From: an uncultured Clostridia bacterium
Lineage (GTDB): Bacteria; Bacillota; Clostridia; Oscillospirales; Acutalibacteraceae
Direction of reading: 5' to 3'
DNA: 40,781 bases
Assembly (NCBI GenBank): GCA_944376265.1
Contig: CALWCD010000014.1
Coordinates: forward strand, 1-40,781
Shown: positions 1,055 through 3,657 of the stretch, piece by piece
Layout of the letters: every line of letters starts with the position of its first letter
Numbering within the stretch: position 1 is the stretch's first letter
The notes under the pieces: model-generated
The model's input: the letters and a program-made list of their open reading frames with translations, nothing else
Databases searched by the model: none
What the model was told of the DNA's origin: nothing
Program-made: the position numbers and the translations under genes

Positions 1055-1075
1055 ATTTTCAAGAATCTTGAAAAT
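1055..1075. promoter_or_regulatory. 21-bp palindrome abutting the large-RNA promoter (candidate operator)
   Basis: Perfect 10-bp arms ATTTTCAAGA (1055-1064) and TCTTGAAAAT (1066-1075) around a single central A. It ends 5 nt before the -35 box of the promoter at 1081-1109. The position, about -61 to -41 relative to the predicted start, suits an activator site or an A/T-rich upstream element. It does not exactly match LexA, Rex, FNR or CodY consensus sites as I know them. Confidence 0.6.
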
Positions 1076-1080
1076 TACTA

Positions 1081-1109
1081 TTGACAAACGGAAAGTGAGG
1101 CGTTATAAT
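1081..1109 (+). promoter_or_regulatory. Full-consensus sigma-A promoter of the large non-coding RNA
   Basis: -35 TTGACA (1081-1086), exactly 17 nt, -10 TATAAT (1104-1109): both hexamers are perfect. It is the best promoter in the window. Predicted transcription start is near 1116. No start codon with a ribosome site follows. Confidence 0.85.
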
Positions 1110-1115
1110 AAGGGC

Positions 1116-2355
1116 GAAGATAAGAGATAGAGATATCTACCAGATCTTCACAGCAGCTTCGCAAAAGGCCGGAAGTAAGTGAGACAGAGCTTTTACCGGA
1201 ACATGCGGAACAAGAAAGTTTCCAGAAGATGTCATCCACAGTTTTTCCAAACGAAAAACAGACTTTCATCGAAACGGAAAATTATTCAAAAGGAGTAAAC
1301 CGAAATCTCTAGGAAACCTGGAAAAGAGTTCTTTTAAAGAGAAGAGAAATTTTTAGAAGAGGTTGCTTTTCAATCAGCTGTTTTCAGAAGAGAAAAAAGG
1401 AAGAAACAAAAAGAGGAATTTCCAAAAAATGAAAGAAAGTTTTTCAAAGACTGAGAGAGAAATCTTCAAAAGCCTTGTAAAAAGCAAGGAACACATTTTG
1501 AGAGATTTCAATTCGAAGTGATATGTTTGGAAAATACGAAAAATGACAGCAAAGGAAGTTCTTGGAACGAGAAAAAGGGGAAGCATCGTTTCAGAGTGAA
1601 AACGGCGAGGAGTGGCATTGAAAAGACAGGCTGCAGGTTAAGAAAACTTTGATTGTATTTGAAAAGAATTTCAAAAACAAGAAGAGGAGCTTTTCTGGTC
1701 AGTCAGTAACCGCAAATTGGCGGTGAAAAGTGGAAAAGCAGAGCAGCCGGAAAAATGCGAAGCTTGCAAAATTATTAATGAGAGAAAGGCGGGTGAGCCC
1801 GATGGATCGGAATGAACCTCAGCACTGTGGGTCTGCGGACTCACATTCCGCAGACAAATAAATTAAAATATAATAGAAAGAAGGTTCCTTATTCTGATTA
1901 TTCCTCAGATGTTAGGAAACCAAAAAGGCACGGATCTGTTTTAACACCGTAAGTTAAATTGCTTTGTAAAGCGTGACCAATACCACAAATGTGGGTTGGC
2001 AATCATAAATGGATAGCGGTTAATTAAGACGGTAATGATGTGCCGGAAAAGGTAATAAAACCAATGTACTAGTCATTTTCTTTAAAGATAAATGCTCTTT
2101 CAAATAGATGATGGTAAGGTCTTAAAAAGTACACTTAAGATTCATTCATGTCATCCAAATGGAAAGAAAGTATAGATGGTAACCAATCATTGACCGCTCC
2201 TAAATTGCTGTGCAACCAAGTAGTCCCATTGTTCATCCTTAGAAAGATAGCAAGAAAACGAACGATTGCAACAACGTTCAGGAACCGTTCAAGTTGGCGA
2301 TAATACCTTCGTAAGTGAAGAGGGCTTTTGGGGTGTTTCTCAAAAGCCCTTTTTG
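1116..2355 (+). ncRNA. Large non-coding RNA gene (about 1.24 kb), family not recognised
   Basis: Transcription from the consensus promoter would run to the terminator at 2321-2354 through DNA with stops in all frames. There are two parts. The first, about 1116-1790, is strikingly purine-rich and low in GC: in 1381-1440 I count 13 pyrimidines and 16 G+C among 60 bases. The second, about 1790-2320, is rich in short perfect hairpins: GTCTGCGGA/TCCGCAGAC (1831-1855); TCTGA/TCAGA (1893-1909) inside a GGTT..AACC stem; a CCAA/TTGG stem around CCAC/GTGG (1977-1999); TCTTAA/TTAAGA (2120-2140) inside GATGA/TCATC; GAACG/CGTTC (2260-2279); CTTC/GAAG just before the terminator. The size recalls the ornate large RNAs (OLE, GOLLD, ROOL), but I recognise no signature of them and no OLE partner gene is next to it. 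Confidence 0.62.
2321..2354 (+). terminator. Terminator of the large non-coding RNA
   Basis: Perfect 10-bp stem AGGGCTTTTG (2321-2330) / CAAAAGCCCT (2341-2350), 10-nt loop, then T5. No coding gene lies between it and the promoter at 1081. Confidence 0.85.
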
Positions 2356-2486: not shown

Positions 2487-3080
2487 ATGGCAGGTGGCAT
2501 TATGCGGAGAAGATCCTCAGAACGTTTTTGGGAAGAGGAAGAGTTCAAGAGCTTCTATGAGACCTTGGCCCAGGAATCCGGATTGGAAGGAATTGCCCAA
2601 TTCCCTCAGCACGGTTCCACCACCCGGTTGATGCACAGCGTAGCCGTTGCGTATTACAGCTACCGGCTGGCCCGTTCCACCAGGCTTCCCTTCCATTGGG
2701 AGGAAATGGTGCGGGGCGCTTTGCTCCACGATTATTTTTTCTACGACGCTCAGGACGGCGACCCGGCCCATAAAGGCCACTGGACCCGTCATCCCGATAT
2801 CGCGGCGGATAACGCCAAAAAGGAATTGTCCCTCACCGCCATTGAAGAGGATACCATTCGCTGCCACATGTTTCCTCTCACGGTAAAGCCTCCCAAATAC
2901 CGGGAAGGCGTGGTGGTGTCTTTGGTGGACAAAGCCTGCTCGGTGTACGAGTTTTTCAGCCGCCGGGCGCCCTACCCCAGACTGCGGGGAGAGATGGTTC
3001 CTGTGGCCGGAGCCCTTCACCACAACATTCATCCCAGCATGTTGTTCCTGCTTCCGGAAATGGCGGGAAAACAGGTGTGA
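2487..3080 (+). CDS. HD-domain metal-dependent phosphohydrolase family protein
   Basis: A 197-residue protein with the HD metal-binding signature: H50 (in L-M-H-S-V-A-V-A-Y-Y-S-Y), the H81-D82 doublet (A-L-L-H-D-Y-F-F-Y-D) and D148 (S-L-V-D-K-A-C). Also visible is G-H-W-T-R-H-P-D-I-A, typical of a Clostridia HD subfamily annotated only as HD-domain or hydrolase. The substrate is unknown; HD proteins are usually phosphohydrolases acting on nucleotides. The start at 2487 has AGGA 7 nt upstream. An ATG at 2502 preceded by AGGTGG is an equally reasonable alternative. The reading frame stays open further upstream to 2328, but that would place the promoter inside the gene. It is monocistronic, with its own promoter and terminator. 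Confidence 0.8.
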   Translation: MAGGIMRRRSSERFWEEEEFKSFYETLAQESGLEGIAQFPQHGSTTRLMHSVAVAYYSYRLARSTRLPFHWEEMVRGALLHDYFFYDAQDGDPAHKGHWTRHPDIAADNAKKELSLTAIEEDTIRCHMFPLTVKPPKYREGVVVSLVDKACSVYEFFSRRAPYPRLRGEMVPVAGALHHNIHPSMLFLLPEMAGKQV

Positions 3081-3091
3081 CGAAATCTGAG

Positions 3092-3119
3092 AGCCTCCTG
3101 GTTCAGGGGGCTTTTTTTC
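3092..3119 (+). terminator. Terminator after the HD-domain gene
   Basis: Stem AGCCTCCTG (3092-3100) / CAGGGGGCT (3104-3112) with one wobble, followed by a T-rich tail. The next promoter begins at 3120. Confidence 0.75.
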
Positions 3120-3200: not shown

Positions 3201-3632
3201 ATGGAAACGATGAAGTCACTTTTTTTGAAATACAAAGAGCTGATCCTCTATGTGTTTTTCGGGGGGCTCACCACGTTGGTCAACTGGGGAAGCTACTGGG
3301 TTTTGGCCGACGTTTTCCACGTGCCCTATTTGTGGGCCACAGCCATTGCCCAAATACTCTCCATCCTCTTTGCCTATGTGACCAACCGGGTGTGGGTGTT
3401 TGAAAGCCGGGCAAAAGGGTTCACCGCCGTATTTTGGGAGATGGTCCGCTTCTTTGGCTGCCGGGGCGCTTCTTTTGTGCTGGATCTGGTCTGCATGAGG
3501 GTGGGCGTTGGGGGCCTGCATGTGAACGACAAGGTGATGAAGCTGCTGTCCAACGTGATTGTCATCATCGTCAACTACGTGTTCAGCAAGGTTTTTGTGT
3601 TTCGCAAACCAAGAGAGAAACAGGGACATTGA
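3201..3632 (+). CDS. GtrA family membrane protein
   Basis: A 143-residue protein with four predicted membrane helices and GtrA hallmarks: an early L-I-L-Y-V-F-F-G-G-L-T-T-L-V-N-W segment, I-L-S-I-L-F-A-Y-V-T-N-R-V-W-V-F, and the closing V-N-Y-V-F-S-K-V-F-V-F-R. GtrA-type proteins are implicated in moving polyprenyl-linked sugars across the cytoplasmic membrane for surface glycan synthesis. ATG 3201 is preferred over the upstream in-frame ATG at 3120 because AAAGG lies 7 nt before it and the promoter at 3120-3148 would otherwise be inside the coding region. The stop codon overlaps the -35 box of the next promoter. The neighbouring LCP ligases and nucleotidyltransferase support a cell-envelope role. 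Confidence 0.88.
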   Translation: METMKSLFLKYKELILYVFFGGLTTLVNWGSYWVLADVFHVPYLWATAIAQILSILFAYVTNRVWVFESRAKGFTAVFWEMVRFFGCRGASFVLDLVCMRVGVGGLHVNDKVMKLLSNVIVIIVNYVFSKVFVFRKPREKQGH

Positions 3633-3657
3633 CGGAAGGGCCTGTTTGGAGTATAAT
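3629..3657 (+). promoter_or_regulatory. Promoter of the LCP gene pair
   Basis: -35 TTGACG (3629-3634), 17-nt spacer, -10 TATAAT (3652-3657). The -35 box contains the stop codon of the upstream gtrA-like gene. Confidence 0.8.

Follow-up and report, generated by a model that had tools for sequence, protein, structure and literature searches.

What might be transcribed from a stretch of about 1.24 kb that follows a perfect promoter and holds no protein gene? The question is raised by the window, the whole 40,781-nt stretch of DNA analyzed here, in which a −35 element TTGACA (1081–1086, +), a 17-nt spacer, and a −10 element TATAAT (1104–1109, +) match the consensus at 12 of 12 positions. An earlier note had read the stretch as a large non-coding RNA gene with this promoter, a terminator near 2321–2354, and no signature of a known large RNA. 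Comparison of homologous loci supports an independent, conserved gene with covarying helices, but not one that is simply non-coding, because the core of its homologues retains a start codon followed by a short frame.

An RNA Gene Beside 6S RNA

The RNA gene occupies positions 1116–2355 of the forward strand, with a start deduced from the promoter. Folding predicts a terminator hairpin at 2317–2354 (+), a 17-pair stem with a 4-nt loop and a T-run, which agrees with the earlier placement and is absent from the output of a simple terminator scan. The contrast in composition first described for this stretch is equally clear: GC is 0.32–0.43 in 200-nt windows from 1101 to 2300, versus 0.53–0.615 across 1 to 900 and 0.545–0.59 across 2501 to 3100, and the A+G content of the RNA stretch is 0.60. 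The statement that it has no credible open reading frame holds for proteins, as two antisense frames of 63 and 70 amino acids have no Pfam match, but it overlooks frames below the 60-amino-acid listing limit, one of 19 codons at 1802–1861 and one of two codons at 2064–2072.

Upstream and divergent from the RNA gene lies a DUF1292 gene (626–931, −), and downstream of that gene is 6S RNA (373–576, −; Rfam RF00013). Genes for an HD-domain protein, GtrA, and two LytR-CpsA-Psr proteins lie downstream of the RNA; a promoter-like TTGACG-17-TATAAT at 3629–3657 (+), with 11 of 12 consensus positions, precedes the first LytR-CpsA-Psr gene. Of 18 homologous loci that were scanned, 11 contain a 6S RNA at gathering threshold, indicating that 6S RNA, DUF1292, and the large RNA form a recurrent cluster. 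From the strong promoter we infer high transcription of the RNA gene, and the consensus sequence suggests that the RNA is abundant.

Conservation Within the Genus

In the genus, taken as Acutalibacter, the RNA gene is found in 23 of 29 genomes, one RNA per genome, divergent from the DUF1292 gene, which is itself present in 26 of the 29. These RNAs were collected by reading upstream of DUF1292 and around DNA matches; a DNA search of 60 relatives gave matches in 14 genomes (the window's own included) at E ≤ 0.001, every one in the same genus. All 23 have an equivalent promoter, TTGACA-17-TATAAT in 21 and TTGACA-17-TATACT in two. A terminator-type hairpin ends 22 of the 23 in a scripted search, while the end of the L099 RNA was placed by eye. 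Retention of the gene in 23 of 29 genomes is more than chance would give and, as judged by sequence comparison, the window RNA comes from a conserved gene that has a promoter and a terminator to itself.

A model of the core (R1, built from 21 sequences) matches 22 of the 29 genomes, with a single match in each. It misses G007 (12.6 bits), whose RNA was recognized from its locus, promoter, and terminator; this RNA (L040, 2386–3009) is itself rebuilt, with four later CCAATG copies, each with a stop within four codons. Three genomes (G004, G009, and G016; loci L098, L109, and L111) keep DUF1292 and have no RNA at that place, the G024 contig (L102) stops shortly after the promoter, and G003 and G015 have neither DUF1292 nor an R1 match. 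The DNA match of G004 to the promoter region lies elsewhere, at L041 (reverse strand, 3233), where a similar TTGACA-17-TATAAT promoter stands without the motif described below, as sought by sequence-pattern search. An Acutalibacter sp. locus (L190, JAAWSH010000016.1) has a short frame, ORF1, identical to that of the near-identical pair L038/L039.

The RNAs of the genus range from about 429 to 1246 nt, the window RNA being the longest. Much of the difference falls in the purine-rich part, which in these alignments is a variable linker, differing in length and sequence. The bipartite layout that the earlier note proposed, an unstructured purine-rich arm joined to a folded 3' domain, is thus not a conserved trait. 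Nor is the arm enriched in 16S-binding sites: a test of 14 of the 23 RNAs counted 92 such sites along their length versus 96 in dinucleotide shuffles. The arm was accordingly rejected as a ribosome decoy.

Several structured elements accompany this linker. A 5' hairpin (GAAGAT/ATCTTC, 1116–1149, +) is predicted by folding, and stem changes in it are visible in the alignment, uncounted. A hairpin between AGUA and GAA (1705–1727, +), which a sequence-pattern search located in 13 of the 23 RNAs, covaries, with a score of 0.536 versus 0.272 (12 distinct sequences). Further downstream are a hairpin GGTTCC/GGAAACC (1883–1921, +), visible in the alignment and likewise uncounted, and a domain closed by GGCAC/GTGCC (1927–2044, +) with an inner GCTT/AAGC hairpin at 1961–1972. 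This domain covaries, with 38 cells changed on both sides versus 13.1, although no more than 58.7% of cells form its inner third helix. It is mostly genus-specific: its model, R2, gives E below 0.001 in two of 12 further loci (L040 and L127). The earlier note had named covariation in aligned relatives as support and a conserved protein frame as refutation; covarying helices are present, and no long conserved protein frame was found in the homologues.

A Repeated Motif Before Start Codons

The shared core begins with a motif of AAAGG, a few letters, GNGAGUCC, one letter, and a start codon, as seen in alignments A1 and A3. A3 holds 69 sequences aligned without structure (L154, L156, L202, and L219 are omitted from 73); A1 and A2 omit L038, nearly identical to L039, and L040, which is misaligned. 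In the window the first copy is a Shine-Dalgarno-like AAAGGCGGGTGAGCCC at 1785–1800 (+). The motif, a start codon, and a frame of 16–34 codons occur together in all 82 unique modules, of which those from public contigs had been pre-filtered for a short frame with GAA at codon 5 and those from the genus and the family draw had not. A loose Shine-Dalgarno plus GRGYCC pattern was rejected as a marker by itself, since it matches 337 times in the 29 genus genomes versus 381 times in the reversed control (summed columns).

Later copies of the motif mostly precede mini-ORFs, the commonest being AUG, one codon, and a stop, and some copies have AAG in place of AUG. The second copy in the window (2045–2072, +) is degenerate, with AAAAGG followed by CCA and then the mini-ORF ATG-TAC-TAG at 2064–2072. 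An in-frame stop falls within four codons in 41 of 53 unique later ATG copies, whereas the two other frames do so in 17 of 52 and 18 of 51 cases (Fisher 5e-6 and 2.5e-5, related copies not being independent). Two of the 53 do not belong among later copies, one in L036 being a first copy and one in L189 a distant site, and both count against the claim. The excess is weaker without the genus, at 22 of 31 versus 26 of 62 (p 0.009). Copy number varies widely. Locus L142 has eight AUG copies, the first included, and one AAG copy, counted by eye; among Ruminococcus-type loci the number of AAG copies rises to four, and in several the last copy is AUG-AGA followed by UAA or UAG. In three Ruminococcus-type loci (L181, L200, and L149) motif copies with AAG for AUG are spaced 54 nt apart and share a common tail.

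Ribosome-binding-site-like motifs repeated before tiny frames suggest that the RNA may capture ribosomes and not make protein. Two-codon minigenes such as AUG-AGA-UAA and lambda bar also place a two-codon frame behind a strong site, whereas here the frames are arrayed within a conserved RNA gene and the second codon varies. A different use of the repeats is offered by CsrB/RsmZ-type sponge RNAs, which carry a repeated leader-like motif: copies of GNGAGUCC would mimic a protein-bound leader and titrate an RNA-binding translational regulator. The several copies per RNA fit this model, as do the AAG copies, which keep the motif yet cannot start translation. The present motif, however, precedes start codons and short frames, and a sponge needs neither the early stops after AUG copies nor the kept start codon; its partner protein is also hypothetical. 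We regard a sponge as unlikely, if the strongest of the rivals.

ORF1 and the Anti-Motif Hairpin

The first motif copy leads into ORF1 (1802–1861, +), 19 codons and a stop, whose start codon and short frame are kept in homologues. The start is ATG in the 23 genus RNAs except for GTG in L032 and L040 and TTG in L033. Unfiltered on frame length, the frame has 16–24 codons in 22 unique genus modules and 16–32 in 11 loci outside the genus. Could the gene be chiefly one for a small peptide, the remainder being a long structured tail or its regulator? The kept start and frame speak for this, together with an N-terminal M-x-x-x-E and a Q near codon 7 in many homologues. Homologues read the same hairpin in different frames, however, which means that the C-terminal half of the peptide is not conserved, and the RNA exceeds the frame 20-fold in length. 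RNAIII-type dual-function RNAs are likewise long structured RNAs with a small frame, but the present peptide is hardly conserved and its start sites are repeated. A peptide gene is thus quite improbable as the main role.

After the ORF1 start comes a predicted hairpin (1832–1854, +) whose loop is complementary to the motif; in the window, CTCAC at 1840–1844 would pair with GTGAG at 1793–1797. Across A3, the seven pairs between motif and loop are formed in 84.5% of cells versus 82.7% in shuffles, with 21 cells changed on both sides versus 2.5 (controls that ignore relatedness). The corresponding score is 0.360 versus 0.324 in shuffles and 0.145 for the best slid version, and one column pair (11/71) reads CG in 24 sequences, UG in 24, and UA in 17. 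In A1, the hairpin and pseudoknot together have 16 cells changed on both sides versus 5.8, again with controls that ignore relatedness. A complementarity search found a loop match reached by at most 5% of single-letter shuffles in 40 of 86 modules; the window's own match, five pairs with a shuffle fraction of 0.32, is not exceptional. The alignments thus point to a covarying pairing that links the motif to the hairpin loop just downstream. The alignment also fits a long alternative helix, in competition with this pairing, in which the Shine-Dalgarno strand would be sequestered (96.4% of cells paired, six double changes versus 2.0), making a switch possible. The hairpin was also considered as a mimic of the initiator-tRNA anticodon loop, which it seems to resemble; the idea was dropped because the anticodon position is not kept.

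The same complementarity could operate between molecules, with anti-motif loops pairing with motif copies of other RNAs to build oligomers. Complexes formed by GOLLD, ROOL, and OLE are reported in PMC12286853. Self-association would suit an RNA with one anti-motif loop and often several motif copies, and the complementarity covaries. The nearest explanation of the pairing is nonetheless intramolecular, as motif and loop lie 30–48 nt apart in most modules, and oligomers leave the start codons and early stops unexplained, making this model very unlikely.

Reach Beyond the Genus

Model R1 matches 15 of 300 genomes drawn from the family, four in the genus and 11 from ten other genera. Each of the 11 loci outside the genus lies near DUF1292, and in each the motif is preceded by a sigma-70-type promoter. 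A draw from the order gave matches in 16 of 295 genomes, with 12 new places. Six were judged real (L272, L273, L275, L276, L281, and L282), DUF1292 adjoining five of them, and L274, L277, L278, L279, and L280 were judged chance matches. Locus L283, in a genome of another family, is a doubtful case: its motif-like sites lie at 1470 and 1520, only 50 nt from each other, and neither the usual promoter (by sequence pattern) nor DUF1292 (by tblastn) was found there. Both draws underestimate the true reach owing to their strict filters.

A pattern scan of a species-genome collection yielded 77 stretches, of which 62 pass a filter for a promoter or DUF1292 upstream and a short frame. The 15 that fail include records titled Deltaproteobacteria, Patescibacteria, and Ignavibacteriae; some of the 15 look real but are cut or fail the promoter pattern. 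By record title, carriers include Agathobaculum desmolans, Agathobaculum massiliense, Faecalispora jeddahensis, Clostridium sporosphaeroides, and Ruminococcus sp. YE71. Family loci chosen by DUF1292 alone have the promoter and the motif with a start codon in 15 of 28 cases, four of which (G090, G175, G079, and G170) were already among the R1 loci of the family draw. The other 13 lack the motif or promoter in sequence-pattern searches, and truncation affects at least three of the 28, which extend over only 527, 885, and 397 nt; the RNA is therefore common, not universal. Phage and plasmid collections gave no blastn match to the RNA. A shorter motif pattern matches 39 viral-contig stretches, a pattern match to which we attach no claim.

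By these searches, homologues span other genera and families of Oscillospirales, and many gut bacteria related to Acutalibacter and Ruminococcus appear to carry the long RNA gene, often beside a 6S gene. A functionless intergenic remnant or chance AT-rich insert would explain variable length and low GC but not a promoter, motif, covariation, and locus conserved in the genus and other families, and is hardly credible.

Comparison With Known RNAs

Rfam 15 has nothing over the window RNA at E up to 5 or over L181 (4750–6400) at E up to 1, and in the 18 homologous loci its only hits at gathering threshold are the 6S RNAs and one RNase P. OLE, GOLLD, ROOL, raiA, and all other Rfam 15 families are rejected on this basis, in keeping with the earlier note, which had recognized no signature of the first three and suggested the search. 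OLE, GOLLD, and ROOL resemble the present RNA in size and in having their own promoter; unlike them, it carries start codons, Shine-Dalgarno motifs, and mini-ORFs. tmRNA (RF00023) is also a structured RNA with a short frame and a pseudoknot, but it too is rejected: the RNA is unmatched, ARAGORN finds no tRNA-like part in the window, and the genome has its own tmRNA elsewhere (G000:C46). Nor is the RNA a 6S RNA (RF00013), since that gene is its separate neighbor and the two are not homologous.

We recognized no description of the RNA in the open-licence library searched; supplements and most subscription papers were beyond reach, so fragments may sit in published candidate lists. In the available part of PMC8040213 the terms sought do not occur.

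To our knowledge, no described RNA combines a covarying anti-motif loop with start-stop frames and repeats of a ribosome-binding-site-like motif. The RNA matches no Rfam family, and its architecture differs from those of the families to which it was compared.

Pairing With the 16S Tail

The 3' tail of 16S rRNA in the genus is CTGGATCACCTCCTTTCT, taken from relatives, as the draft genome of the window itself did not yield it. The complement of this tail is close to the motif with one G added. The predicted duplex between this tail and the 18 nt before the start has an energy of −18.6 kcal/mol in first copies (55 unique; shuffles −8.6), −13.1 in 31 later NTG copies (shuffles −6.6), and −14.9 in 20 AAG copies (shuffles −7.5). 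For 26 chosen gene starts of the window, themselves putative, it is −11.0 kcal/mol (shuffles −6.9). These predictions support the motif as a strong Shine-Dalgarno sequence.

Pairing that extends further along the tail is only suggested. PMC13009471 reports extended Shine-Dalgarno helices near the start codon in S. aureus. Here, the start-proximal half of the motif alone is predicted to pair with the tail at −6.0 kcal/mol, a value that three controls match at rates of 5.3% to 10.5%. Its predicted pairing with the anti-motif loops is much stronger (−10.9 to −13.5 kcal/mol). The conserved C in the genus sequence AAAGGCGG is also not the best Shine-Dalgarno choice.

A Proposed Role in Ribosome Engagement

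The reading we favor, at a probability of about 0.4, is that this conserved Oscillospirales RNA with its strong promoter acts by engaging ribosomes. Counted for it are the conserved promoter and locus, the motif with its start and frame, the covarying loop, the early stops, and the predicted 16S duplexes. Counted against it are the weak 16S pairing of the start-proximal half, the lack of a general excess of 16S sites, the short pseudoknot of the window, the weaker mini-ORF excess outside the genus, the conserved C in AAAGGCGG, the three genus genomes with DUF1292 and no RNA, and the 13 of 28 family loci without motif or promoter.

Under ribosome engagement, 30S subunits would dock on motif copies through the anti-Shine-Dalgarno tail of 16S rRNA. 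The anti-motif loop would mask the first site, and a ribosome translating ORF1 would open it. At later sites ribosomes would start, make one to three codons, and stop, while at AAG copies they would only bind. The net effect would be that free 30S subunits are held or sensed with no protein made, much as 6S RNA holds RNA polymerase.

In a more specific version the RNA would be to translation what 6S RNA is to transcription: abundant and often encoded beside 6S, it would capture 30S subunits on arrayed strong start sites with start-stop mini-ORFs, its first site gated by a loop that mimics the 16S tail. The likeness lies in a consensus promoter hinting at abundance, the proposed part as a global-machinery mimic, and a common neighborhood; the proposed target here is the ribosome, not RNA polymerase. 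The 6S neighbor makes the analogy attractive, no more, and we consider this version possible but doubtful.

The RNA library searched thus seems to lack a large RNA gene that common gut bacteria conserve. Its culturable carriers, Agathobaculum desmolans ATCC 43058 and Clostridium sporosphaeroides DSM 1294, make the RNA directly testable. If ribosome capture is true, these bacteria would control ribosome availability by RNA alone, from a gene near that of 6S RNA, the controller of RNA polymerase. If the 6S counterpart is also true, the gene would represent a new means, made of RNA alone, of setting or sensing how many ribosomes are free.
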